The notes beneath the pieces are model-generated. The model made no database searches. It was not told where the DNA came from and worked only from the letters and a program-made list of their open reading frames with translations. A stretch of 35,560 nt of DNA from a virus: positions 1 through 35,560 of IMG/VR virus record IMGVR_UViG_3300045016_000341; one strand, given 5' to 3'. Positions 1 through 35,560 of this stretch are shown piece after piece. Position 1 is the stretch's first letter. Each line of letters begins with the position of its first letter. The position numbers and the translations under genes were made by a program.

Positions 1-291
1 TTGGACCGTCTCGTACTGCACTCGCCATGCTCTGCCGTCTGGATTGAGCACGATCGCATGCTCGCCGTAGGTCCCGAGAACCTCTGCACCGTCGCCGAAG
101 AGATCGACCCTGGAACGCACGGCCTCAGAAACCGCCGTCACACGCCTCTCGTAGCTTCCAGCCAGCAACTCGTCGATAAACCCGGCGTCCATGTACGTCA
201 TGGAGAAATCGTATGGAATAGCAGCGACATCGTCAAGCCTACTGTTGTCGAGGCTCGAAATGGACTGGTTTGTGTGCCGCACGGATATCAC
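1..291 (-). CDS. Unknown protein downstream of portal (partial, C-terminus outside window)
   Basis: A minus-strand frame stays open from a stop at about 294 to the window edge. It reads VISVRHTNQS, then passes through MTYMDAGFIDELLAGSYERR and EVLGTYGEHAIVLNPDGRAW, which looks like real protein. Candidate starts are GTG at 291 (GGTGG lies 8 nt upstream), GTG at 282, or ATG at 201 with no ribosome site. If 291 is right, the gene overlaps the portal 3' end by 53 nt. In gp20-type phages the gene after the portal is often a head-maturation gene, but I recognise no domain in the visible 97 residues. The C-terminus is cut by the window. Confidence 0.5.
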   Translation of the reverse strand, partial: MISVRHTNQSISSLDNSRLDDVAAIPYDFSMTYMDAGFIDELLAGSYERRVTAVSEAVRSRVDLFGDGAEVLGTYGEHAIVLNPDGRAWRVQYETVQ

Positions 292-3073
292 TCAAAAGAC
301 CACCAATTGCATGCAATCGTTTGCGGATGTCCGCATTCTCCGCCAAGAGTTTATCGAGCTTTCGGTCCGCCGCCCTTTCGGCTGCCCGCCCACCCTTGCT
401 CTCGAACTCGCGTCTCCAGTCCAATGACCGACGATGCCTTGCAGACGCAACCGATTGCGCCTGAAGCATCCTGGAAATCACATAGTCTGGCGTGTCACTG
501 GCAACGCTCTCCATGGGTGGCGCCCGCAATCGCTCGGCCTCTGCATCCGTTTGTGCTTGGGCGATCGCCTGACTCCTCTTGTCATCCAGAATCTCGACCG
601 CCTCGTCCTCCGAGAACCCAAGCACGTTCACAAGCACCCACTTCGTCCCGACGATCTCCTGTAAGCGCGTCGCAAGGTCTGCCTTCGCCGACATCACCTC
701 GCTTCGAGCAAGGTCAAGAATCTGGCTCGGCACAGCCATGCGAACGTCGAAGTCCTCCGGTTGGACCTGCCTGCCCTGGGCCGCGAAATGCACCCGCATG
801 ACCTTGTGCCACCCGCGCCGAGTAGCATGCTGAACCCGCATCTCCGTCCTGGCAAACCGGATGTCCTCAGACGAAAGCATGTTCCGAGCTTCGCCCTCGG
901 CCGACCCCATATAGGACTGAGGGACCTTCAGCGATGAAACCAACTTCCTGCGGAAGTAGTCGAGGGTATCGGTTTCGGAAAAATCGGCACCTTGAATCAA
1001 CTCGACGTCCGTCAGACGCTTCCCATCTCGCACCGGAATGAAGAAATCCTCATCAGGCGCCAGAATATTGAACCTCGTGTCAAGTTGCCCCTGCTTGTTC
1101 ACGTACCGTTTGCGAGAGAGGTCGCGGCGCGCATCCTCGAGCTTCTTCTTTCCGCGCCGAGCGTCATCCGATCCGATGTCGATATAGAATGCGTGCCGCG
1201 AAGGCGTCCGCTCAAGTTTGTAGAAGATCGCCGCGTCTTCCATGAGTGCCAGCCGTCGCCATGGCCAACGCGCAGGCTCGATCACTGGGTATCCATAGAT
1301 CGACCGAAGATGCTTCCCACGCAGCCTCCAGTGGACAACCTCCCAATCCTCAAACATCACAGCCGTCGAGAACTTGGAGAAACTCTGAGCATATGCCTGA
1401 TAAGCCCTTGACATGTTTGCAGAACTTCCACCGACCACGTATTGCGACCAGAAGTTCCAGAAACTTGTCAGGTCGGATGGAAAGAGCCCGGTCGGGTTCT
1501 GCATGAATCCCAACAACCCGACATTCGGATGTTCGATTCTCCGCACTGTCGGCGGCGGCAGGAAGTTGAGCCCGATCACACCGTCCTTGGAATCAGAACC
1601 GAGAACAATTTCGGCGTATGTGTCGCCATATTTGCAGAGAGTCCGAACCTGAGCCCAGATGTCATCGTGCGCGCCGACCTTCGCCAGCACATGATCGATC
1701 TCCTGCTTCACATCCTTATCGTTTGAGTATCCCCAGATGACCGTCTCGTCATCCGCTGTCGGAACTGTCGCGTCATCGGCGTATATGTCGAGCGCTGTGT
1801 TGTGAACCACAACGCCATCACAAACAAAATTGTGAAATCCAGGAACATGAAGATCGTAAACAGCAGGTCGCTCATCAATAACCTCGACCCGCAACACACG
1901 ATGGTTGTTTCCATCTACTAGAAGATCATAACGCTCTGCATTTCTCTTCAATGTACCCCACGATACACCAAGGAGACGAGCTGCCTCTGCTATGGTCCCA
2001 CAAAGATTGAGCGCAGACTCAACATCTGCACGGGAAAGATCAATTCTAGTCGGCTGCGAAAGCCCAATCTTGAGTCGATGATCTTCGCTCTTACGCCTTC
2101 CATTCTGAGCCATGGAGATCGCTTTTTTATGTTTTTCCGAGCGCTTACACCCACGGCTAAACGTGTTACCACGCATCTTCTCGGCCTGCTCGGCCTTTCG
2201 TTCATCAGTCCACTCTGGTAAGAACCTGCTGTTGTCAATCCCAGCAATGTGATGCATGGCGTGTGATGAATTGGTCTCGATAAAAAGATTTTCTGGTGAA
2301 TTATTTAGTGAGTCATTTCTTCCATGATGGATGATATCGCCGCTACCCTGCTCGATCCCAAGCATCTCCTCAGCAACCAGACGATGAAGCCACATCCACC
2401 GCTTCCCATCAGATGACCGCAACTTCGAATCAGGACTCGGCTGATGAATTTGCCAGTAAATTCCGTCGAACGATCCCCCAAGACACCCAAGCCGAAAGAC
2501 CCCGGGCATAAGACGCATCGTCGGCATGAGATCCCCGGCATCGACCCACTCTCCATCCTTTGTCATGAATGGATGGTCACTCGTGCAAACGATCTGCGTA
2601 CCGTTATCGAGCGTGACACGAACCATAGCCTTTCCGTGCCCATCGGGCGCGCTGACCATCGCTTTGGTAGCCTTCGCCGGAACCAACGATTTCCGATCGC
2701 GGTCGTAAGAAATGACATAGAATGAGTCTCCGTAAGCAGCAAGCTCCTCGATCCGCTTCCACCCCCACTCAAGGGTGAAGACCATGCACGATCCCTCGAG
2801 ACACCCGACTTCAGGGTAATCGTCCATCTCTTCGTATTCGATGTACCTAGAGACCAGATCCTGTTCGAGGTAGAGGTAGTCAACGAACGAAGATTGCCCC
2901 CACGCCCCTCCCATCGCTCCGCCGACGGAGCCCTTTCCATGACCAAGGTATGGCGTCCCGAGCCCGCGTTGAACTTGAGCCGCATGCCGTTCCGGTTCAC
3001 GCGCGAAGAAATCGCGGACCACAGAACCAAGTCGACCAACAAAGCCTTCTATACGAGACGCCATGCCGCTCAT
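239..3073 (-). CDS. T4 gp20-like portal protein interrupted by an intein
   Basis: This is the dodecameric head vertex protein through which DNA is packaged. The frame is 944 codons, or 609 residues once the 335-residue intein (residues 91-425) is removed, close to gp20-type portals. The spliced junction would read YPEV-G|T-ALDIYADDATV, matching the gp20 pattern of YPEV followed by ALD-I-ADEAT. RTPSRHAFYIDIG (about residue 625) matches the RAPERRVFYIDVG hallmark, and LDYFRRKLVSSLKVPQSYM matches the family YFRKKLY-LNVP segment. The gene starts 7 nt after the terminase stop. The start may be residue 1 or Met4, since no strong ribosome site distinguishes them. The insertion lies in the conserved N-terminal portal segment, so splicing should be essential for a functional portal. 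Confidence 0.88.
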   Translation of the reverse strand: MSGMASRIEGFVGRLGSVVRDFFAREPERHAAQVQRGLGTPYLGHGKGSVGGAMGGAWGQSSFVDYLYLEQDLVSRYIEYEEMDDYPEVGCLEGSCMVFTLEWGWKRIEELAAYGDSFYVISYDRDRKSLVPAKATKAMVSAPDGHGKAMVRVTLDNGTQIVCTSDHPFMTKDGEWVDAGDLMPTMRLMPGVFRLGCLGGSFDGIYWQIHQPSPDSKLRSSDGKRWMWLHRLVAEEMLGIEQGSGDIIHHGRNDSLNNSPENLFIETNSSHAMHHIAGIDNSRFLPEWTDERKAEQAEKMRGNTFSRGCKRSEKHKKAISMAQNGRRKSEDHRLKIGLSQPTRIDLSRADVESALNLCGTIAEAARLLGVSWGTLKRNAERYDLLVDGNNHRVLRVEVIDERPAVYDLHVPGFHNFVCDGVVVHNTALDIYADDATVPTADDETVIWGYSNDKDVKQEIDHVLAKVGAHDDIWAQVRTLCKYGDTYAEIVLGSDSKDGVIGLNFLPPPTVRRIEHPNVGLLGFMQNPTGLFPSDLTSFWNFWSQYVVGGSSANMSRAYQAYAQSFSKFSTAVMFEDWEVVHWRLRGKHLRSIYGYPVIEPARWPWRRLALMEDAAIFYKLERTPSRHAFYIDIGSDDARRGKKKLEDARRDLSRKRYVNKQGQLDTRFNILAPDEDFFIPVRDGKRLTDVELIQGADFSETDTLDYFRRKLVSSLKVPQSYMGSAEGEARNMLSSEDIRFARTEMRVQHATRRGWHKVMRVHFAAQGRQVQPEDFDVRMAVPSQILDLARSEVMSAKADLATRLQEIVGTKWVLVNVLGFSEDEAVEILDDKRSQAIAQAQTDAEAERLRAPPMESVASDTPDYVISRMLQAQSVASARHRRSLDWRREFESKGGRAAERAADRKLDKLLAENADIRKRLHAIGGLLSDIRAAHKPVHFEPRQQ
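445..460. repeat. Degenerate copy of the 16-bp palindrome
   Basis: ACGCAACCGATTGCGC differs from GCGCAACCGGTTGCGC at two positions. It lies in the portal 3' region. On its own it could be chance, so it is listed only because three exact copies exist elsewhere. Confidence 0.4.
1799..2803 (-). mobile_element. Bifunctional intein with HNH homing endonuclease, inside portal
   Basis: This in-frame 335-residue insertion begins with Cys91 (CLEGSCMVFTLEWGWKRIEE, block A). It has block B TSDHPF (the T-x-x-H motif, residues 164-167) and ends with block F/G YDLHVPGFHNFVCDGVVVHN, that is penultimate His424 and Asn425. The +1 extein residue is Thr426. All residues needed for standard Cys-type splicing are present. 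The centre (about residues 249-274) carries an HNH_3-like endonuclease, IIHHGRNDSLNN-PENL followed by H-MHH. A helix-turn-helix (IAEAARLLGVSWGTLKRNAE, about 361-380) probably reads the target DNA. The endonuclease looks intact, so the element is likely still mobile. The target would be intein-free portal alleles of related phages. Confidence 0.92.
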
Positions 3074-23926: not shown

Positions 23927-23947
23927 TGCATCATGTTTATTCGTCAA
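23920..23947 (-). promoter_or_regulatory. TTGACG promoter, 16-bp spacer, divergent
   Basis: TTGACG (23947-23942) is followed by a 16-bp spacer and TATTAT (23925-23920), a near-consensus -10. The predicted start at about 23913 gives a 58-nt leader with AAGGAGG before ATG 23855. It drives the coiled-coil and ParB-like genes and shares its -10 with the plus-strand promoter. Confidence 0.75.
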
Positions 23948-23962
23948 CAGGAGATGGCGACG

Positions 23963-24226
23963 ATGGAGGAGAAAAAACAAAATAATTTTGAGGGCACGCT
24001 GGGAGACGTGATTCGGTTGCTCGTCGACAGACCTGATCGGGTTCGCGTTGTGCCCGTCGCAGGCGATGGCATCACGTTCTACGATATCCAGGTCGATCAT
24101 CGTGACGTTGGAACAGTCATCGGTCCAAAGGGAAAGCACATCAGCGCCATCCGCACGATTTTCATGGCAGCATCCGCAGTCCAAAGGCAACGCATCTCGA
24201 TTACAGTCAACAGCAGGACCGACTAG
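23963..24226 (+). CDS. KhpA-like KH-domain RNA-binding protein
   Basis: The preferred start is ATG 23963 (MEEKKQNNFEGTLGDVIRLL) with AGGAG 9 bases upstream. In-frame ATGs at 23933 and 23954 give 10 and 3 extra residues. About 87 residues match bacterial KhpA: DVIRLLVDRPDRVRVV for the N-terminal strand-helix, then DVGTVIGPKGKHISAIRTIF with the GxxG loop GPKG, and a closing RISITVN strand. A single KH domain binds short single-stranded RNA. KhpA is normally a host chaperone-like RNA-binding partner of KhpB. A phage copy next to a tail-like gene is unusual. Its stop overlaps the next start by one base. Confidence 0.8.
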   Translation: MEEKKQNNFEGTLGDVIRLLVDRPDRVRVVPVAGDGITFYDIQVDHRDVGTVIGPKGKHISAIRTIFMAASAVQRQRISITVNSRTD

Positions 24227-25163: not shown

Positions 25164-25802
25164 TCAGCCTTTCTTGGTCCCATGAACCAAGCGCAACCGG
25201 TTGCGCTCCTGCTTCATGCGGGCTTTTCGCGTCACCGCGTCGGCTCGGTCCATCATCGTCACCCCATTGAGATGATCGATCTCGTGCTGAACCGCACGAG
25301 CGATCAGGTGCGTAAATTCAGTCTCCCACCACTCACCTGTGTGGTACCTGGCGCGCACGCACACTCTCATTGGCCTCCGAATAGGAATGGTGACATTCGG
25401 GTACGACAGACATCCCTCGTTAACAACCTCCGTCTCGTCACTCTCCCAGGTGACCTCCGGATTCACCGCCACCAAGAGTTCGCTCTCTTTCCTCGGAACG
25501 AAAACCTCCCGACCATCCACCTTCACACGCCGTGGAGAAGCAAACAGGTCGACCACGAACACTCGCTTCAATACCTTGATCTGCGGCGCCGACAGACCAA
25601 CGCCGCCGACCGTGTACATCGCAGTCGCCAGGTCGCTCACAAGTTGCCGCGCATCCCCGAACTCATTGTCAGCAACTGAAACGCACGGCTCTGAAAGTCC
25701 TGGATGCGGGGCGAGAAGGATTGTCACCTTCCTTGGCTTCGGAGCATCCAGCAGAAGTTGAGGAACAGGCGGCGGAAATGAAGCATCAAAGTTGGTCTTC
25801 AT
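25164..25802 (-). CDS. def: Peptide deformylase
   Basis: It removes the formyl group from nascent N-terminal Met. Start ATG 25802 (MKTNFDASFPPPVPQLLLDA) follows GAGGG. The 35 upstream residues of the longer frame read into the neighbouring small gene. It has 212 residues and all three PDF motifs: GVGLSAPQ (G-x-G-L-x-A-x-Q), EGCLSYP (metal-binding Cys), and QHEIDHLNG (metal-binding His pair and catalytic Glu). The length is near bacterial enzymes, with a strand insertion before motif II. Phages of several groups encode PDF, where it is thought to speed early viral protein maturation. The 16-bp palindrome copy at 25191 lies in its 3' end. Confidence 0.93.
   Translation of the reverse strand: MKTNFDASFPPPVPQLLLDAPKPRKVTILLAPHPGLSEPCVSVADNEFGDARQLVSDLATAMYTVGGVGLSAPQIKVLKRVFVVDLFASPRRVKVDGREVFVPRKESELLVAVNPEVTWESDETEVVNEGCLSYPNVTIPIRRPMRVCVRARYHTGEWWETEFTHLIARAVQHEIDHLNGVTMMDRADAVTRKARMKQERNRLRLVHGTKKG
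25191..25206. repeat. 16-bp palindrome GCGCAACCGGTTGCGC, copy C
   Basis: A perfect copy of the same palindrome inside the 3' end of the deformylase gene, encoding Arg-Asn-Arg-Leu-Arg-Leu. The copy at 10633 encodes the same six residues in an unrelated protein, which argues for selection on DNA and not on protein. Confidence 0.75.
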
Positions 25803-25977
25803 CACGACCCTCGCCCACCATATCGAATGACGGTTCAGGATATTCTTGGCATGGCTGTTCACGTTCGTGCTGTTGCTCGGAAAAAACAGTCGTAACAGAA
25901 CCCCCAATCCGGATCACCGTCGGGCCATATCCTCCGTCCACAACGAGCACACGTTGTCGCGGTCCATCCAGGTTCAA
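25786..25977 (-). CDS. Small unknown protein upstream of deformylase
   Basis: The frame opens with a TTG at 25977 and codes for 63 residues. It begins with strands (RQRVLVVDGGYGPTVIRIGG, then SVTTVFSEQQHERE) and ends with an acidic tail. Only weak start signals exist, so the N-terminus may be one of the later GTG codons. It overlaps the deformylase start by 17 nt, consistent with co-translation and with starting the deformylase at 25802. No function is recognised. Confidence 0.45.
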   Translation of the reverse strand: MNLDGPRQRVLVVDGGYGPTVIRIGGSVTTVFSEQQHEREQPCQEYPEPSFDMVGEGRDEDQL

Positions 25978-26820: not shown

Positions 26821-27342
26821 CTACTTACATTCTGGCACAGCTATCGGAGTATTCAATGTGTACTTGACCACATCATCAACATCCAACCTGGCAAGCACCC
26901 CCACATCAACGAGCCTCATGATCGCCTTGTCCATGAGTGGTCGCTTGGCGTCCGACCACCTGGCTATACATGCCACCTCGAAAGCCTTAAGCGGACGGTT
27001 CTCTCGGTGCAATGTACTCACGACCAACCACTCGTCGCCCGAAACATCGCCAACCAGAAACTTCACCCACTTGATGAGAACTTCGACAGGGTCATCGCCC
27101 TCTACCAATTTCCGACGGCACGCGTCCGAGCACACCTCGCCTCGCTTACCGCCGAACTTCTTTCCGCAAACAACGCACCCGACACCACCAGTGCTTTTTT
27201 TCGGGGCGTCCTTCACATCATGATCTGATTCATGAGGAACACTCCGATGCTCCACGGAGCACGACCTCGAACAAAAACGCCGCAACCTCCAACACACAAA
27301 CGGCTGCCCACAGCTTTCACAGACGACTTGAATCGGAGTCAT
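26821..27342 (-). CDS. Double zinc-finger protein
   Basis: The start is ATG 27342 (MTPIQVVCESCGQPFVCWRL), whose ATGA overlaps the stop of the upstream gene. It has 173 residues. Two zinc knuckles are visible: CESCGQPFVCWRLRRFCSRS-C and CVVCGKKFGGKRGEVCSDAC, both CxxC-x(n)-CxxxC. The C-terminal helical half (GDDPVEVLIKWVKFLVGDVS, then LKAFEVACIARWSDAKRPLM) contains a winged-helix-like stretch with DKAIMRLVDVGVLARLDVDD. A nucleic-acid-binding regulator or HNH-like accessory is likely, and no catalytic motif is seen. Confidence 0.6.
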   Translation of the reverse strand: MTPIQVVCESCGQPFVCWRLRRFCSRSCSVEHRSVPHESDHDVKDAPKKSTGGVGCVVCGKKFGGKRGEVCSDACRRKLVEGDDPVEVLIKWVKFLVGDVSGDEWLVVSTLHRENRPLKAFEVACIARWSDAKRPLMDKAIMRLVDVGVLARLDVDDVVKYTLNTPIAVPECK

Positions 27343-27545
27343 CGTCGTTGTGCCAATTTGGTGACGGCGACATCGTAAAGCCGCTCGAAGAACAGATCGA
27401 GCCACTGTTCGAACGGAAGGTCTCCTACTCGATATCCTTCCACTTTCTCATCTACATTCACCGCCACCGACAGAATCTCACGAAACTCATCGCATGAGCA
27501 CAAATGCCCATCAATGTTCGGTCGCCGTCGTTGACCATTCCCCAT
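27339..27545 (-). CDS. Small unknown protein, leaderless
   Basis: The frame is 68 residues, beginning MGNGQRRRPNIDGHLCSCDE. It has a basic start and an amphipathic C-terminal helix (PFEQWLDLFFERLYDVAVTK). ATG 27545 has no ribosome site, but the promoter at 27554-27581 starts transcription within two bases of it. It overlaps the double zinc-finger gene by 4 nt. No family is recognised. Confidence 0.55.
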   Translation of the reverse strand: MGNGQRRRPNIDGHLCSCDEFREILSVAVNVDEKVEGYRVGDLPFEQWLDLFFERLYDVAVTKLAQRR

Positions 27546-27553
27546 TACCCATC

Positions 27554-27581
27554 AGAATCGGTCTTGTTTGATAGTTGTCAA
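27554..27581 (-). promoter_or_regulatory. TTGACA promoter, 16-bp spacer, leaderless start predicted
   Basis: TTGACA (27581-27576) is followed by a 16-bp spacer and GATTCT (27559-27554). The start at about 27547 lies two bases before ATG 27545. The -35 overlaps the 3' end of the cyclotransferase gene. It separately drives the small protein and zinc-finger gene. Confidence 0.6.
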
Positions 27582-28378
27582 GCCAAGATCGTCCGACGGC
27601 TCGCAGGGCGCACACGCCGCCAGTTTCCACTCTTGATGCGCTGGCAACCAGCAACAGCGGATCGATTGAGCATCAGGTATGCGAACGCCTTACATCCATC
27701 GCCCAAATCGATCAAACGACGTTGGTAGAACCTGGGATGCCCCTCCAGCCGATCAAGGTCGTTCAGCGTTTCACGGTCCACCTCGTAGACCTCGCCAACG
27801 ATGGCTGTCCTGCCCCCATCAAGCATTGCCGGATAGGCGCCGAGGCTCACGAGATCGAACGCTGGCTCGGTGCGCGCACGACCAACGAACGCGGCGCCCG
27901 CCAACAGTCGGTGATTCGATTCACCGAAGAGCAAGGTACCGTAGACGAACACTCGAACCACACCATCGACATTCAGACCTGACTCGTCCCAGCCATGGTC
28001 GCGGTAGACGGAACGAATCACTTCCAGGTAGGACTCCGACGGGAATCCAAAAACACAGTTTTTGAGACAATAAACGATTGCCCGCTGCTGACCACCAGGA
28101 CCGCTGACGACCCTCCAGCACCGATCGTAGACGTCTGGGTGTCCCTCGTACACATCGAGGCTGCCCAAGTCGTGGCGCCCAATCTCGTACAGCATGCCAG
28201 GAACCACGCTGCCCGCCTTCCGGGCGACTGTAGCCACCGCACCGCCCCAACGGGGGCTATACCAGCCGAACAGCAAGCGGTGGTCACGGAGGACCGCATG
28301 GCCGACCAACCTCGATTCGGGACACCGCCTCGCCATCTGCATCCCGTCCATGTTTGAACCATATGCGAAATACATCAT
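27578..28378 (-). CDS. Tandem gamma-glutamylcyclotransferase (AIG2/GGCT-like) protein
   Basis: The start is the first of two ATG codons at 28378 (MMYFAYGSNMDGMQMARRCP) with GGGG upstream. It has 266 residues in two GGCT-fold copies. Copy 1 has YFAYGSN, GGAVATVARKAGSVVPGMLY and LDVYEGHPDVYDRCW. Copy 2 has VFVYGTLL, GAYPAMLDGGRT, GEVYEVD and LDRLEGHPRFYQRR. Both keep the catalytic-type Glu in LDxxEG (about residues 78 and 212). These enzymes release 5-oxoproline from gamma-glutamyl amides (BtrG, GGCT, GGACT). Two domains in one chain are unusual. It follows the amidoligase by 19 nt, as expected for partner enzymes. Confidence 0.8.
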   Translation of the reverse strand: MMYFAYGSNMDGMQMARRCPESRLVGHAVLRDHRLLFGWYSPRWGGAVATVARKAGSVVPGMLYEIGRHDLGSLDVYEGHPDVYDRCWRVVSGPGGQQRAIVYCLKNCVFGFPSESYLEVIRSVYRDHGWDESGLNVDGVVRVFVYGTLLFGESNHRLLAGAAFVGRARTEPAFDLVSLGAYPAMLDGGRTAIVGEVYEVDRETLNDLDRLEGHPRFYQRRLIDLGDGCKAFAYLMLNRSAVAGCQRIKSGNWRRVRPASRRTILA

Positions 28379-28397
28379 CCGAATGTCCCCATTTGCG

Positions 28398-29312
28398 CTA
28401 GGCAACCCTGCGGGCCCCCGGCCATGCAGCCGACCCTTCGAGGTTCTTCAGCAAGTGCCGACGGCAGGTCTTGTAGCCGTCGCCGACGAGCCCAAGATCC
28501 AGCAGAAAAAGTCGAAAGTAATACTTCGAGCCGCCGTCCACCGCCCGAACACTCAGCCTGGGCATCGACTTCGTTTCTGCCCGCGCAACCAATGCAAGGC
28601 AAAATTGCAAATACGCCTTGATCTCACCGGCATGCAACGTGCCGTTGAACCAGCGAAACTCAATCGTTCCCCGAAAGAAAAGGCTGTGCAAGTTCAGCCC
28701 GCGGTAACGCGTGTTGAACTCCCTATCGTAGTGAGTTGGGGAGGAATTAAAGCATCCGTACCAAGCTGCATTGATGTCGTCCAGACATTGATTTGGGCGC
28801 ACCAGCCGCAGCCGCCGCAGCGTATCTTCAGGAATAACACGACACCACCGTCTTCGTTCTGCATTCTGAAGCGCCTTCTCCAAAAGGCCGTCGTACTTGT
28901 GGACCATCGTCGCCAGGGCGGCGACTGCCTTCGGGGTAAGGCCAGCGCCGTCAACGTGGACATGAATGCCGCATCCGCGCGCAGCGTCCGACTTCGCGCC
29001 TGCGTTTCGGAGGGCGCGAATCACCCCCTGGAGGAGGTCAATGTCTTCGCCGCCACACAGCGGCGGGGTCACGATCTCGCTCGATGTCGAGCTTTGGATG
29101 CTCGCATCGTCTTGGCATTTCCAAATGCGCCCCTGCCTGTCGCTAACTGAATACGTGCCGTACACTCCCCCCGTGTAACTGGGCTCCCCAGCCCCAAAAA
29201 ACCGAGCCAGCACGCTGGCCGCTTCCGAGTTGCTCAGCCCATACGTTTCGATTTCGACGCCAAATTTGCGGCTGGAAGGCGTCTGGGTTGCGATCTGGGT
29301 GTCTTGCGTCAT
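28398..29312 (-). CDS. Amidoligase (Amidoligase_2, glutamine-synthetase-like fold)
   Basis: It is an ATP-dependent COOH-NH2 ligase with the glutamine-synthetase/GshA-type fold. It has 304 residues and matches the Amidoligase_2 pattern: FGVEIET (17-23), the KCQDDASIQSSTSSEIVTPP region, CGIHVHVDG (113-121), and RYRGLNLHSLF followed by TIEFRWFNGTLH (about 204-230). Glu20, Glu22 and His116/His118 are candidate metal or ATP ligands. It would form an amide bond on a peptide, wall precursor or small metabolite. Its own promoter (29333-29360) gives a 14-nt leader with GAAGGA. The downstream cyclotransferase partner suggests reversible or edited gamma-glutamyl chemistry. Confidence 0.87.
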   Translation of the reverse strand: MTQDTQIATQTPSSRKFGVEIETYGLSNSEAASVLARFFGAGEPSYTGGVYGTYSVSDRQGRIWKCQDDASIQSSTSSEIVTPPLCGGEDIDLLQGVIRALRNAGAKSDAARGCGIHVHVDGAGLTPKAVAALATMVHKYDGLLEKALQNAERRRWCRVIPEDTLRRLRLVRPNQCLDDINAAWYGCFNSSPTHYDREFNTRYRGLNLHSLFFRGTIEFRWFNGTLHAGEIKAYLQFCLALVARAETKSMPRLSVRAVDGGSKYYFRLFLLDLGLVGDGYKTCRRHLLKNLEGSAAWPGARRVA

Positions 29313-29825
29313 GCTCTTCGTCCTTCTCTTTCAACATGAGCATGGTTCGCTATTTGTCAACGGCGCCACACACCTTTTTTTCGCATTCGGTCTCGAATCG
29401 AAAGGAAACCAATTCCGAAACCAGGCAACAAAACTGGCACGAAAACGACACGGGAATGACGCACAAAACAAACCCCGAACGGGAATTCATTTCCACCAAC
29501 AACGCCATGCGACCGATCGGGCCGGGCAGAAAGCCTGGGGCGCCCAACTTTTCTCGGAGGTCAACCAAATGGTTGACCGGGGAGACTGGCCTGGGAGGCA
29601 CGAACGAAAGAGGATACACATGGAGATGGAAATTCGTGCTGCTGGTTGCGCCGATAGATCGCATTTCTGTTAGTTCAACTAACGATCGCGTCATCATTGC
29701 TGCGTGAAAACCGTCACCCGACAATACGCCGCACAAGCCACTGTGATCGAGATGGAAGTTGAGGGCTTTCGCTACCTACGTCACCCCTGCCTCGAATAGA
29801 CCGGGGCGCGGCCGCTCGAAAACGG
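29313..29825. other. 513-bp stretch without a confident gene, with promoter and two palindromes
   Basis: It contains the amidoligase promoter at 29333-29360, an inverted repeat GGTCAACC-AAAT-GGTTGACC (29559-29578), and GTTAGTTCAACTAAC (29669-29683), flanked by GATCGC on both sides. Two frames of 128 and 139 codons are open here on opposite strands, but neither has a ribosome site, a domain or a sensible composition. A regulatory intergenic region between the amidoligase cassette and the zinc-ribbon genes is the best reading. Confidence 0.55.
29333..29360 (-). promoter_or_regulatory. TTGACA promoter, 16-bp spacer, amidoligase cassette
   Basis: TTGACA (29360-29355) is followed by a 16-bp spacer and CATGTT (29338-29333). 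The start at about 29326 gives a short leader with GAAGGA before ATG 29312. It shares the downstream GAAnCATGCTCATGnTG motif with the promoter at 12746-12773. Confidence 0.55.
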
Positions 29826-30056: not shown

Positions 30057-30369
30057 GTTCCTCCAATGCTGCATGCAGCAATGCAGCATGCTCCATCTCG
30101 CCTGCTTCCTTGAGCTGTTCGGCCTCGAGGACCGCACACGACCGGCAGTACCATTTGCACCGACGTTGCGGCCGATAGGAGATCCAAACGATCGACGTCT
30201 CGTCTTCCGCGGCTCCGTCGTCGCGGTGGACTGGATAGGAGTAGTGGAGATCGGCAAGCGCTCCACATGCACAACAACGAAATCGACGTGGAGTCGCAGG
30301 CTGATGATGCACCAGCGTCCCACGTAAAAGCCCGGACAAGATATAAAACAGACTGCGCAGAATGGTCAT
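30037..30369 (-). CDS. Small zinc-finger protein with hydrophobic N-terminus
   Basis: The frame is 110 residues. It starts MTILRSLFYILSGLLRGTLV, a weakly hydrophobic helix that may associate with membrane. A zinc-ribbon pair follows: FRCCACGALADLHYSYPVHR and KWYCRSCAVLEAEQLKEAGE. The C-terminal helix EHAALLHAALEEHDKKTK is made of a near-repeat (encoded by inverted-repeat DNA). Its start overlaps the stop of the upstream gene by 4 nt and its stop overlaps the next gene by 20 nt, so all three are co-translated. No family is recognised. Confidence 0.6.
   Translation of the reverse strand: MTILRSLFYILSGLLRGTLVHHQPATPRRFRCCACGALADLHYSYPVHRDDGAAEDETSIVWISYRPQRRCKWYCRSCAVLEAEQLKEAGEMEHAALLHAALEEHDKKTK
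30066..30089 (-). promoter_or_regulatory. Hairpin directly before the zinc-ribbon ribosome site
   Basis: ATGCTGCAT pairs with ATGCAGCAT across a six-base loop. It ends one base before the GGAGG (30060-30064) of the gene at 29826-30056. A folded hairpin could expose or hide the ribosome site. It lies inside the coding region of the upstream gene. Confidence 0.5.
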
Positions 30370-31097
30370 GGCTTCATCTCCTGCCCATCATCCGTAGGTT
30401 TCGATTCATCGAACTGAGGAACCCACTTCACCTCATTACCTCGCCCGCCCTTGGACCGCTGGCGAATGACAACGCCACACTTTTCAAGGTATTTGACCAC
30501 CCTCACCACGGTCGGCCGATCGACTTCGGACAATTCAGCAAGCTCCGTCGCCGTCTGCGGCTCCGATGCAACCTCGATCCACTGAACGACTGCCAGGTAT
30601 TCAGCATGCGTGAATCCCCGCTTTGAGCGTCGTTTGGGAGTCGGCGGCCGATCGTCAACGATGGAATCGGGCGTTGATGAGGACTTGGTGGTGGTGGCGG
30701 CACGCGGAACAACATCTGCATCCACCGCTTCAAGAAACGACTGAACGCCGGTCTCACGAATTGGCTCGACGACGATCGACGCTGGGTCCGGCGGTGCTCT
30801 CCATTGCAGGGCCGACTGTCCCCGCTGGTAGGCGGCAATATCATCCGGCTCCCAGGTGGCTCCGGTGACCAACCTCATCCGCGATTTCCTGTCAGGGGGG
30901 GTGGGGAGGTTACGCACCCGTTGGATGAAGGCCGCAAGCCCGGCTGAGATCTGCACCAGGGATGCTGAGTCGAAGTACCCGGTCTGCCGGTCGTATTGCA
31001 CGGCTTCCCGCAGGACTGGAACGTAGAAACCATTGACCAACTCCCCGGAAGTCCCCGAGTACCGCCGCAGCATCCCGGTCAAGTCACGGAAGCTCAT
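30366..31097 (-). CDS. PLD-helicase N-terminus fused in frame to a winged-helix protein
   Basis: The N-terminal about 93 residues (MSFRDLTGMLRRYSGTSGEL, then FYVPVLREAVQYDRQTGYFD, then SRMRLVTGATWEPDDIAAYQ) are the phospholipase-D-like N-terminal domain of large DEAD/SNF2-type helicases found beside DUF1156 methylases. The helicase motifs that should follow are missing. From about residue 94 the sequence turns to an unrelated Ser/Pro-rich linker and a C-terminal winged helix: AEYLAVVQWIEVASEPQTAT, ELAELSEVDRPTVVRVVKYL, EKCGVVIRQRSKGGRGNEVK. The gene follows the methylase by 4 nt and overlaps the next phage gene by 4 nt. The two halves meet near 30815. The product is therefore a hybrid or an assembly artefact. 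Confidence 0.7.
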   Translation of the reverse strand: MSFRDLTGMLRRYSGTSGELVNGFYVPVLREAVQYDRQTGYFDSASLVQISAGLAAFIQRVRNLPTPPDRKSRMRLVTGATWEPDDIAAYQRGQSALQWRAPPDPASIVVEPIRETGVQSFLEAVDADVVPRAATTTKSSSTPDSIVDDRPPTPKRRSKRGFTHAEYLAVVQWIEVASEPQTATELAELSEVDRPTVVRVVKYLEKCGVVIRQRSKGGRGNEVKWVPQFDESKPTDDGQEMKP

Positions 31098-31101
31098 CGG
31101 C

Positions 31102-34100
31102 TCAGATCCGCCAGTTCTTCAGCAATAGATTCCAGGCCCTTCTGGCCTGGCTGGCCGAGTCGTGCCAGACGTTGCCCTCGGGATTCTTGCTGAAGACCCG
31201 TTCCAGCAGGTGCAGGGTCACGGCGAAAGCGCCGAAGAACTCGGGCTGGCTACCGTATCCAGACTCGACGAGCCAACGCCTCAGGGCCTCCACGCCCCTT
31301 GGTCCCTCCTCCGAGCCGTGCATCAGGGTGATGGCATTCCAGACCGCCGCACCGACGAAGTTGGGAAAGGTCCGTTCCTCCCAGACATCGGCCTCCCGAC
31401 TGGACCGTCCTCGCCCCCGGTCCACGACCTCACCCTTCAGGCGAAGTGCGACCAGGCGCAGGTCCACCTCGAAGGGGGAGCGCAGAACGAAAGTTTCCTT
31501 GTCCTTGCGGAGCAGCCCCATCTTGCCGAAGACCTCGGGGTCCACGCCGAGAGACTTGGCTAGCTTGCGGACATCGTCGGTGTGGGCGATTTCGCCCTGG
31601 AAGGTATCGAGCCAGAGCCAAAGGGTCTGGGTGTCCCGGTCGGCTCCCTCGGCGGAGAAGGAGGAAGTGGCCTCGCCGAAGTCTGGCATCTTGCTCAGGT
31701 CGGCCAGGATCTGGCCCAACCGCCACTGGCCCACTGCCTTGTAGGCTTCGTCGAGGGCTTCGACCAGATCGACCAGACGACCCGCGAGGTCGGTCACCGG
31801 CCAGTTGGCCGCCACCTGGCGGATAGCGGGGCCTAGGGCGGAGAGATACAGATCGGTTCCTGCCAGGCCCTGGCCTTGAAACCGTTCGGCAGCGGATCGA
31901 GCAGCGGCTGCCACCTTGCCTTGGACGGTACCCCAGTTGCCGACCGGCTGGTCGACCTCCTCCCGGGGCATGCACAGCAGCAGCACCGTGCTGCGGGCCG
32001 CATCGAGGCCGCGGATGTTCAGGCTCGACTCGGCCTCAGTGTGGATGGGGACGGAGCTGCGGATCTCGAAGCCAGCCCGGATGAGCGCCATACCGAGGGA
32101 GCGCCAGGCCCAGGTCTGCTTGTGGTTGAACATCACGACCATGCGGCCAGCCGGGTGCAGGAGCTGCCGGGCACGGCGGAAGACCGAGGCCATCTTGTCC
32201 TCGTAGAATTTGTCCGCGAGCTCCTTGGCCGTCATCGGCTTCGGCCCGGCCAGCGCCAAGGCCTGGGGCTTGGCTTCTTTGACCTTGACCTTCCGGCTCG
32301 TTAGCTCCTTGTAGAAAGCGTCGTACCTGGTCTGCCAGGCTTCCAGCTCCCGATCGGCCTCCTGCTGCCAGCGAGCGGCATTAGCCACGGCTTCTCGGTT
32401 CGACTCGGCCAGGGGCTCACGGAACAGGTGGGCCAGGCCAGGTATGTCACCGAGAGCACGCTTCAGCCAGACATAGAAGAAGTTGGACAGCTCCGAGTAC
32501 TGGACGTTGTTGTAATAAGGGGGATCTACGCAGATCAGATGCACCGTGCCGGGAGCCGGCGTCGAGAGTGCGGCAGCATCCTCGCAGGTCACGATCGGGA
32601 CGATGATCTCGGGGCGGAGGCCCCCGGAGACAGCCTGGACGGCGTTAGCCGAGCTGCTGTCAACTTCCTCCCCGCTCTCCTCGTCATCGGCGAAAAATTC
32701 TCCGTTCGTGCCTCCGCTCTCTACGCCATCCTCGTCTTCATCGTCCCCGCCTAGATACAACTCGCCGCCGTGGATGAGGGCCGCCAGTCCTTGATAGGCG
32801 TCGATGATCTGCGGAGTAGCCCACTGGATGGCCTCTTGGGAACCCTCGTACTCGCAAAAGGCTGCACGAAAAGCAAAATCGTGCCGGGAAAAGGTCTGCG
32901 TTCCCTTGATCCGTGTGTAGTCCCAAAACGTGTTCACACTGTTGTAGTTGATCACCTTGCTCAGTAGAAAGGCGAGATAGACGCTGACCGCCTCAGCCTC
33001 TGCCGGAGGGAGCTCGGCTCGGGCACGGTCCGAAGCGGTCCGGATTTCCTCCAAGATGACCATGTTGGTCAGGAGCTGACGAGGAAGGAAGAAGTCACGA
33101 AAGCGAGTGATCCCCATGTTCCTGGGCTCTTTCGTCTTTTCCCCTTCCGCTATCTCCTCGTTCGGAAGGAGGCCGAGGGCCTCCAAGCGGGGCATCAATT
33201 TCGCCAGTTCCAGTTCGGCGGCAGCAACGGCGTCGAGGTCGGCCTGGGTGGGAACACGGAACCGCCAGAGGTAGCGGGTCTTGGTGGAGCCGTCCTTGTA
33301 CGTCAGTAAAACAGGCACTTTGGAAACCACAGCGTACATCTGGGACGGCAGCCCACCCGGCCGGGAACGTGCGATCTCCTTCACCTGGTCGCCATCCATC
33401 ACGTGCCCGCAGCGGGGGCAGAGGGCGCGGCCGTCCTTGAAGGTAGTCGTATCCCGGGGATGCCAGTGGGTGAAGCCGGGGAGTGGCCAGCAACAGCTTT
33501 CCCACTCAGCCTTGCGCACGATCCGGAAGGTGCAGACGTTTCCCTGGCCCCGAGCAGGGACCTCGGGAAAGGCCGCGACGTGACCTTCGCTCTTGCCCTT
33601 GGTGTTGAGCTGAAGATTGGTGGAAAGCGGGATGTGCAACCTGCAAGAGGGGCACTCGACCGTTCTGAGCCAGAGGTACGTGTTCTTCTTCTGGGGTGCG
33701 TTTCGATCAGGAGCGATGGAAACGACATTGCGGGAGCCAAACCTCTGGTGCGCTCGTTCCGCCACATCGGCCCACCATTCGGTGATGGGAGGCATGGGGA
33801 AAAAGCCGGCGAGGCGATTCTGCACCGCTTCCTGCAGCGGCCGAGCAAAGGCCTCGAAGCGGGGCATCAAACCTTGCCCATGCCGAGCCGGGTACTGGAG
33901 GGTAGCCCGCAGGACCAAGGAGGCCACTGGGTTCAACTCGTTGGCAAAAACCCGTGCGCCGTAGCGGACTGCCGCCAGGGGGATCGCCCCGCCGCCGGCC
34001 ATGAAGTCGAGAACCACCGGTGCTTCGCCGAGTGGGAGCCCGAGATACCTGGCCGAGACACGGTTCAGATGTTGGAGGATGTCTTCGGGAATCGTTCCGT

Positions 34101-34572
34101 CCCGCTTACTGGACAGGAACCGGCTGAATGGCTCCGGTAGTTGAACCCCCTGCTCTTGGGCAGTCTCTTTCTGCTTGGCGAAGCGTGCGGGATCTCCAAA
34201 AACACGCAGGAACAGCAGCAATCTCTGGTGTACCTCAGGTAAATCGGTAGGAGGGATCGACTTCAGCAGAGACTGATAGAAGAGCAAATTTCCACGAAAT
34301 TTGCTTCCCAGGGCGGCCAGGTGCTCGTCATCCACCGGCGGGTCGAAGGTAGCGGCTGCTGGGCAATCTAGCGGCTCATCATACGGCAGCAGAGCAGTCA
34401 ACGCAGCCACTCTACAGATGGTCGGGGGACGTCGAGCCCACCAGATGTGCAGACGATTCTGGGGTGGACGCTGCCTGGCATCGTTGTCCGCCAGACACTC
34501 GGCTGACAGAGAGGAGCAGGGGAGCCCCGCCTCCAGCATGGATGGGACGGTCCTCACGAATCGTTCGCTCAT
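31102..34572 (-). CDS. DUF1156 / COG1743 adenine-specific DNA methylase
   Basis: This large protein (1156 residues) shows the COG1743 layout. The N-terminus has RLHIWWARRPPTICRVAALT, then SAM-binding DFMAGGGAIPLAAVRYGARV. A zinc-ribbon segment uses VECPSC and CPRCGH. Catalytic DPPYYNNVQYSELSNFFYVW (about residue 682-701, DPPY motif) follows an acidic, disordered insertion (DDEDEDGVESGGTNGEFFAD). Members methylate adenine and occur in defence islands beside helicase and ATPase genes. Start ATGA overlaps the upstream stop. It appears intact. Confidence 0.85.
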   Translation of the reverse strand: MSERFVRTVPSMLEAGLPCSSLSAECLADNDARQRPPQNRLHIWWARRPPTICRVAALTALLPYDEPLDCPAAATFDPPVDDEHLAALGSKFRGNLLFYQSLLKSIPPTDLPEVHQRLLLFLRVFGDPARFAKQKETAQEQGVQLPEPFSRFLSSKRDGTIPEDILQHLNRVSARYLGLPLGEAPVVLDFMAGGGAIPLAAVRYGARVFANELNPVASLVLRATLQYPARHGQGLMPRFEAFARPLQEAVQNRLAGFFPMPPITEWWADVAERAHQRFGSRNVVSIAPDRNAPQKKNTYLWLRTVECPSCRLHIPLSTNLQLNTKGKSEGHVAAFPEVPARGQGNVCTFRIVRKAEWESCCWPLPGFTHWHPRDTTTFKDGRALCPRCGHVMDGDQVKEIARSRPGGLPSQMYAVVSKVPVLLTYKDGSTKTRYLWRFRVPTQADLDAVAAAELELAKLMPRLEALGLLPNEEIAEGEKTKEPRNMGITRFRDFFLPRQLLTNMVILEEIRTASDRARAELPPAEAEAVSVYLAFLLSKVINYNSVNTFWDYTRIKGTQTFSRHDFAFRAAFCEYEGSQEAIQWATPQIIDAYQGLAALIHGGELYLGGDDEDEDGVESGGTNGEFFADDEESGEEVDSSSANAVQAVSGGLRPEIIVPIVTCEDAAALSTPAPGTVHLICVDPPYYNNVQYSELSNFFYVWLKRALGDIPGLAHLFREPLAESNREAVANAARWQQEADRELEAWQTRYDAFYKELTSRKVKVKEAKPQALALAGPKPMTAKELADKFYEDKMASVFRRARQLLHPAGRMVVMFNHKQTWAWRSLGMALIRAGFEIRSSVPIHTEAESSLNIRGLDAARSTVLLLCMPREEVDQPVGNWGTVQGKVAAAARSAAERFQGQGLAGTDLYLSALGPAIRQVAANWPVTDLAGRLVDLVEALDEAYKAVGQWRLGQILADLSKMPDFGEATSSFSAEGADRDTQTLWLWLDTFQGEIAHTDDVRKLAKSLGVDPEVFGKMGLLRKDKETFVLRSPFEVDLRLVALRLKGEVVDRGRGRSSREADVWEERTFPNFVGAAVWNAITLMHGSEEGPRGVEALRRWLVESGYGSQPEFFGAFAVTLHLLERVFSKNPEGNVWHDSASQARRAWNLLLKNWRI

Positions 34573-35339
34573 GCTGCCTCCAGCACCTGACTGAGCTGAT
34601 CCTGGTTCGACCAGCGAGTGATCTCGGAGAGGTCACTCAACAAGCGAAAGTCCTCTTCGTTCCAGACGTCCACCGTGTCGTCGAAGAGGGAGACGAAATG
34701 GAGCGCCGAGGGACCGACCTTATAGGTGGACAAGTCGTACCAGGCGGCAAGGACGTGCTCGGTTATGGGCTTGGCCGCCGCCCGGCTGCCGGTCGCTAGG
34801 ACGTAGACCAGCGAGCTGCGTCGGGGAGGTCGGACATGGAAGTCGGGCCGCCAGATCCGCCCGGATCGTCCTGGCAGGCTTTCCCCCCGCTCGAAGGGGA
34901 ACTGCTTCTCGACCAGAAAGTCCGCCACCTCGTCCGTCACCGTCTCGACGCTGCGCGCCCGGAAGGTGAACCAAAGATCGGCGACCCGCAGGCAGCCTTG
35001 AGCCAGCCGGGTGACGGCCTTTGCCAGCGACTCGGTGGGCTGGAGCCGGGTCAAGAGCTGCCCCTTGAACAACTCCAGACCATGGTTCATGCAGATGTCG
35101 CCGAGGAGCTGGCGCTGCTTGGCTGAGCGGCGAGTGGCGATCGTCTGGAGGCGCAGCCACCGCAGGCTCTCCCCCAGATCGGTCACCGTGATCATCTCCC
35201 CGGCGCTCTGGCGGAGGAAGACGTCGATCACGTCTCCATCCGGATAAAGGTAGGGAGTCCTGACCCGAACGTAGTTGCCGTGCTCCCCGCAGGCGAACAG
35301 GACGCCCATCTCACTCCGGAGCTTCTCGCAGAGGCTCAT
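34569..35339 (-). CDS. DUF1828/DUF1829 protein
   Basis: Start ATG 35339 (MSLCEKLRSEMGVLFACGEH) follows GGAGGAG by six bases. It has 256 residues. The N-terminal part (PYLYPDGDVIDVFLRQSAGE, then MITVTDLGESLRWLRLQT) matches the DUF1828 pattern, where a GD and DxG are conserved. The C-terminal part (LVEKQFPFERGESLPGRSGR, then WRPDFHVRPPRRSSLVYVLA) resembles DUF1829. The domain pair is common in bacterial mobile and defence loci and has no known activity. It overlaps the methylase start by 4 nt, which places it in the same operon. Confidence 0.7.
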   Translation of the reverse strand: MSLCEKLRSEMGVLFACGEHGNYVRVRTPYLYPDGDVIDVFLRQSAGEMITVTDLGESLRWLRLQTIATRRSAKQRQLLGDICMNHGLELFKGQLLTRLQPTESLAKAVTRLAQGCLRVADLWFTFRARSVETVTDEVADFLVEKQFPFERGESLPGRSGRIWRPDFHVRPPRRSSLVYVLATGSRAAAKPITEHVLAAWYDLSTYKVGPSALHFVSLFDDTVDVWNEEDFRLLSDLSEITRWSNQDQLSQVLEAA

Positions 35340-35560
35340 AGCAACTCCTCCTGGACCGGCGGCGGGTCGTGGAGCACCCCTGCGTGCGTGATGCGGGCCT
35401 CGGCGCAGAACTGCTCCCAGACTCGGACTGGCTCGGTGGGAAGTGCGGTGATGTCCCTCGGGACGTAGGCTTCTTTGTCGCGGTAGAGCTCGGACCAGGA
35501 GTGCTTGTGCTTCTCCCCGACGTACGTGCACTCGGGGTTGTGGTGGTCCTTTCCGAGGTC
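35336..35560 (-). CDS. Unknown protein, C-terminal part (5' end outside window)
   Basis: A frame open from the window edge to TGA at 35336-35338 encodes 74 residues, beginning DLGKDHHNPECTYVGEKHKH and continuing SWSELYRDKEAYVPRDITAL then PTEPVRVWEQFCAEARITHA. The HKHSW-E-YRDK-AYVP pattern recalls small bacterial proteins of unknown function with HRHRW-E-RDKWAYVP. It overlaps the DUF1828 gene by 4 nt (ATGA). Because most of it is missing, no role is given. Confidence 0.6.
   Translation of the reverse strand, partial: DLGKDHHNPECTYVGEKHKHSWSELYRDKEAYVPRDITALPTEPVRVWEQFCAEARITHAGVLHDPPPVQEELL

Follow-up and report, generated by a model that had tools for sequence, protein, structure and literature searches.

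Profile searches, structure prediction and comparison of related loci identify in the window, the whole 35,560-base stretch analysed here (an IMG/VR virus record in which phage genes are present), a pair of genes encoding an Amidoligase_2 enzyme and a fused GGCT-GGACT cyclotransferase. We consider it fairly probable that this pair would act as a gamma-glutamyl ‘make and cut’ cassette whose target is an amine or short peptide in the cytosol. Such amidoligase-cyclotransferase pairs occur often in viral contigs and in loci of Firmicutes and Myxococcota, yet the papers we found report a tested substrate for none of them; the window, with its two genes and its two cutters joined in a single protein, is a compact form convenient for biochemical test. 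The pairing in phages and the guess that it modifies the cell wall are already in the literature, with no tested function there. New here are the predicted fold link of the amidoligase, linkage counts taken in both directions, the description of GGCT-GGACT fusion as against separate genes, and the finding in relatives of a small companion protein that could point to the substrate.

The amidoligase and the double cyclotransferase

The preliminary description of this DNA had placed an amidoligase and a tandem cyclotransferase at 27578-29312, and the two genes do lie there, adjacent on the minus strand and of the families it named, with PF12224, PF06094 and PF13772 all scoring above their curated cut-offs. 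The amidoligase gene (28398..29312, minus strand) encodes 304 residues, of which residues 14-242 match nearly the entire PF12224 profile (E=1.4e-45, 156.5 bits against a curated cut-off of 22 in the profile search), and phrog_2443 matches the same protein at E=1e-73. Across 79 amidoligases G18, E20, E22, W64, D69, S71, H117, N207, E218 and R220 are invariant, as are others, and the putative metal- or ATP-site residues of these relatives (E20, E22, D69, H117, N207, E218 and R220) are all kept in the window protein. Of the catalytic pair Glu20/His116 proposed earlier, Glu20 stands; residue 116 however is Ile, and the conserved histidines are 117, which is invariant, and 119, which is present in at least 90% of the sequences.

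Searching the PDB with the amidoligase, either as a single sequence or as a sequence profile, gave no match, and for this reason its fold assignment rests on a predicted model. The AlphaFold model (pLDDT 90.8, pTM 0.91) finds its best matches in VIA-align among YbdK-type and plant glutamate-cysteine ligases (Z 13.4-13.7, with alignments of 237-251 residues at an rmsd of about 4 A), followed by glutamine synthetases, bacterial glutamate-cysteine ligases and Dop (Z about 10.5-11.3). The window amidoligase therefore has a predicted YbdK/glutamate-cysteine ligase/glutamine synthetase-like fold in common with this group, although identity to its members is only 10-14% and no sequence match is significant.

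The fused cyclotransferase gene (27578..28378, minus strand) encodes 266 residues when read from ATG 28378. Its longest open reading frame opens with TTG at 28405, but ATG 28378 is the likely start because it lies 19 nt past the amidoligase stop and has GGGGA, which we read as its ribosome-binding site, 7 nt upstream. With this start the catalytic glutamates carry the numbers previously assigned to them, 78 and 212, and both are intact. The GGCT-type domain (profile match at 27995..28384, minus strand; 144 bits with a type-specific profile) contains FAYGSN and Glu78 within LDVYEG, and the GGACT/AIG2-type domain (27665..27955, minus strand, likewise 144 bits) contains FVYGTL and Glu212 within LDRLEG; these type-specific profiles took over from early iterated profiles, which had failed to separate the two cyclotransferase types. 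The N-terminal half also matches PF13772 (36 bits, curated cut-off 27) and phrog_2520 (E=2.6e-50), and the C-terminal half PF06094 (E=4e-42, 143.9 bits, curated cut-off 22.8). Moreover, the human GGCT and GGACT structures match two separate halves of the protein, GGCT the N-terminal half at E=7e-8, and GGACT, together with YkqA and YtfP, the C-terminal half at E=5e-13 to 1e-8. Among relatives the GGCT-type glutamate is kept in 124 of 124 domains that cover the site (one further domain is cut short there) and the GGACT-type glutamate in 39 of 39. With both glutamates kept, it is plausible that the fused protein has two specificities, as had been suggested. Among deposited phages and plasmids no record covers at least 80% of the tandem cyclotransferase.

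Upstream of the pair, AGGA at 29321..29324 (minus strand), 8 nt from the ATG, is a plausible ribosome-binding site for the amidoligase. A dedicated promoter had been claimed at 29333-29360, and a perfect TTGACA -35 hexamer is indeed present at 29355..29360 (minus strand), yet no good -10 follows it: the candidate CATGTT agrees with TATAAT at three of six positions, and a consensus promoter scan finds no minus-strand promoter in this interval. We do not retain the claim.

The wider window encodes a T4-type portal split by an intein with an HNH endonuclease (239-3073, minus strand), resolvases, a Cas4-like exonuclease, a UvsX-like recombinase, primase, DnaB and DnaC. It also carries a phage-borne peptide deformylase (25164-25907, minus strand; PF01327, E=1e-36) and a small KH-domain RNA-binding protein of the KhpA/KhpB type (23933-24226, plus strand, opposite to most genes). 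A defence-like cluster at 30366-35531 (minus strand) comprises a DUF1156 methyltransferase, a DUF1828 protein that matches the PADLOC candidate PDC-M24B (E=4e-105) and an open reading frame whose resemblance to PbeA is confined to its N-terminal part. The DUF1156 methyltransferase is the sole base-modification gene among the searched reading frames near the cassette, and DNA hypermodification was dropped as a candidate.

Linkage, fusion and the companion in related loci

A scan with the single window amidoligase returned one relative, and alignments were used as queries instead. Linkage of amidoligase and cyclotransferase is clear from both sides, with a cyclotransferase close by in 141 of 157 amidoligase loci that had enough flank (viral and bacterial contigs) and an amidoligase within about 4 kb in 61 of 79 viral loci fetched by cyclotransferase alignment alone, although these counts are not independent events, since some of the sequences counted are related and the selection leans towards relatives of the window protein. 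The comparison sorts three partner types among the 157 loci: GGCT only (91), both types (35) and GGACT only (15, some resting on weak matches of 25-36 bits), with the remaining 16 having neither. As this pairing is found again in many further phage and prophage loci, its occurrence in the window is not chance.

The amidoligase tree divides the viral loci into two groups, one of them large and pairing with a single GGCT-type partner, the other, which includes the window, often carrying both GGCT and GGACT. No GGACT was seen in the Firmicutes genome loci. The amidoligases closest to that of the window come from Myxococcota genomes, at up to 53% identity, where amidoligase, GGCT and GGACT follow one another as separate adjacent genes. 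In a sample of 193 genomes from the phylum of one Myxococcus genome, 26 matched, mostly with adjacent GGCT-GGACT pairs. Myxococcus xanthus AM003 holds four such pairs in one genome, and its contigs L092, L110 and L168 have the pair with an amidoligase beside it. Loci of Desulfobacterota type combine an amidoligase, a DUF5049-bearing protein, a glutamine amidotransferase and a divergent GGACT. Two further features were seen in loci of Firmicutes type. Upstream of the main amidoligase gene, L012, L018, L019, L023 and others have a second, distant amidoligase-like gene, and in Firmicutes phages a protein of 65-68 residues with paired, zinc-ribbon-like CxxC motifs is encoded directly 3' of the GGCT gene (L004:5493-5699, L005:5488-5685).

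The fused double cutter is an uncommon version of the cassette, recurring in seven distinct contigs (the window, L010, L111, L178, L179, L184 and L189). Linker length varies among the fused proteins, and in the cyclotransferase domain trees, read without support values, those of the window, L010 and L111 fall in different places, on which grounds fusion of GGCT and GGACT probably occurred more than once; its repetition in turn suggests that the two cutters work together. The fusion is not tied to the pair, however, because within 4 kb of the fused genes of L179 and L189 there is no amidoligase, and this counts against the make-and-cut reading.

In most of 35 loci a conserved protein of about 80 residues is encoded downstream of the cassette (L168:4270-4509, L111:5700-5942 and about 33 further loci). 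Its predicted model (pLDDT 93.9) has the order beta-beta-alpha-alpha-alpha-beta; the best PDB match reached Z 3.1, Foldseek returned nothing below E=1, and two unnamed viral protein models resemble it at a TM of about 0.8. Profile comparison relates the companion to the N-terminal region of the DUF5049-bearing protein (hhalign probability 95.6%), and the C-terminal extension of the GGACT in L083 is possibly a further relative. One companion showed a similarity to L7/L12 that fell below the Pfam cut-off and was set aside, and tblastn did not find the companion in deposited phages. In the window no reading frame scores above chance as a companion, including a 68-residue frame at 27339-27545 considered as a hidden copy, and the companion is missing also from L010 and L013.

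These observations bear on two other explanations. In the first, the amidoligase would modify a particular protein, perhaps one of the virion or the companion itself, by attaching glutamate to it or through it, and the cutters would edit the product. The fold matches include Dop, an enzyme of the Pup system, and the companion is conserved after the cassette, but the window lacks it and, in contrast to Pup, it has no conserved C-terminus; a Pup- or LysW-like carrier role for the companion was rejected on the latter ground, and we regard protein modification as quite unlikely. Alternatively the window copy could be the decayed remnant of a larger cassette, given that neither the companion nor glutamine amidotransferase or ATP-grasp genes were detected among the window reading frames searched, in a record that may itself be a fragment. 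Both frames are nevertheless open and full length with their invariant residues kept, and L010 holds a similar two-gene set, which makes decay very improbable.

Proposed chemistry and what it may serve

YbdK, glutamate-cysteine ligase and glutamine synthetase make amides of the glutamate gamma-carboxylate, and Dop cuts them. The bond handled by the fold group of the amidoligase is thus the bond that cyclotransferases cut, and this predicted fold gives the best support for the proposal that the two enzymes share gamma-glutamyl amide chemistry. On the make-and-cut reading the amidoligase would spend ATP on activating the gamma-carboxylate, either of glutamate itself or of some glutamyl compound, and join it to an amine, a reaction modelled on those of YbdK, glutamate-cysteine ligase and glutamine synthetase. 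The fused cyclotransferase would then strip gamma-glutamyl groups with a free alpha-amino group to give 5-oxoproline and the amine, its GGCT-kind site presumably taking gamma-glutamyl amino acids and its GGACT-kind site gamma-glutamyl amines. We infer the direction of the reactions, the bonds concerned and a cytosolic location for both enzymes, whose target would be a small amine or short peptide, with the cassette serving as accessory phage cargo (a moron). Several points stand against this reading. Two enzymes that make and cut the same bond would cycle futilely unless they differ in timing or substrates, the fold comes from a model whose sequence profile has no PDB match, and, as the preliminary description had also held of substrates, the papers found show no enzyme activity for any member of a phage cassette.

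Known cyclotransferases require that the gamma-glutamyl residue has its alpha-amino group free, and in intact wall peptides that group is acylated. Given this requirement, and as no signal sequence can be seen by eye at the N-terminus of either protein, direct cleavage of wall peptides by the cyclotransferases, as formulated in the preliminary description, is unlikely. In a cytosolic variant the enzymes would alter peptidoglycan precursors or other components of the envelope and thereby make the lysogen or infected cell resistant to other phages, the chemistry being that of the make-and-cut reading put to this use. Envelope change that excludes other phages is the most discussed benefit, and a possible one: wall modification or superinfection exclusion is repeatedly suggested in PMC5498523, PMC11318856, PMC11253131 and PMC10580990, where the proposal, as they cite it, traces to the sequence analysis of Iyer et al. 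2009, its only cited basis. The setting of related cassettes is moron-like, those in L011 and L094 adjoining genes of the tail region and for amidase-type endolysins, a neighbourhood where lysogenic conversion genes usually lie, and others in Firmicutes phages lying near terminase. The window cassette, however, neighbours replication and methyltransferase genes and not lysis genes, and intact wall peptides lack the free alpha-amine at D-Glu, so we rate the envelope explanation as somewhat unlikely.

A slightly less probable, and in our judgement doubtful, alternative is auxiliary metabolism, in which glutamate, thiol, amine or polyamine pools would be shifted to favour phage growth. Both the folds and the families belong to glutathione and gamma-glutamyl metabolism, and PMC10945688 proposed a part in nitrogen or amino-acid metabolism and described growth stimulation by a phage carrying such genes, although whole phage was used and not the individual genes. 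The cassette moreover occurs in prophages and in phages of very different hosts, and the dedicated companion in relatives argues for a more specific target than general metabolism.

Returning to the make-and-cut reading, its boldest form would be a phage system, complete in itself, that puts gamma-glutamyl groups on one specific target and takes them off again, with the assistance, in many relatives, of a small dedicated protein of no known fold. This would amount to a new kind of reversible modification in phage-host conflict, and we offer it as speculation whose chances are low, a shade below those of protein modification. Overall the preliminary observation is confirmed and its interpretation borne out in part, with the promoter and His116 falling away.

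Comparison with known cassettes

Amidoligase and gamma-glutamyl cyclotransferase genes have been described together in phage genomes (PMC5498523, PMC11318856, PMC11253131), in cassettes of the phiEco32, LUZ24, RIO-1 and PSA-HP1 type, in Clostridium and Terrisporobacter prophages and in Ca. Heliusvirales phages. The window is a cassette of this known kind: as in the phiEco32/PSA-HP1 type its amidoligase lies near a cyclotransferase, but it is a variant in which both cutters are fused and no companion, amidotransferase or ATP-grasp partner was detected among the reading frames searched. The phiEco32-type sets, found also in Pseudomonas phage Bjorn, add ATP-grasp and glutamine amidotransferase genes, and Firmicutes sets have one GGCT-type gene where the window has the GGCT-GGACT fusion. 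Myxococcota loci have the three enzyme types of the window in an unchanged order, but nearly all of them keep the cyclotransferases as separate genes, L111 with its fusion being an exception, and they have a companion gene after the set.

Two other systems offer further parallels. In butirosin synthesis BtrJ, an amidoligase, adds a gamma-glutamyl group that the cyclotransferase BtrG removes, and the window pair is alike in principle; BtrJ is however an ATP-grasp enzyme and not of the glutamine-synthetase fold. Bacillus YkqA (PDB 2qik), similar to the window protein, places two cyclotransferase-type domains in one chain, but in the order GGACT-like then GGCT-like, the reverse of that found here.
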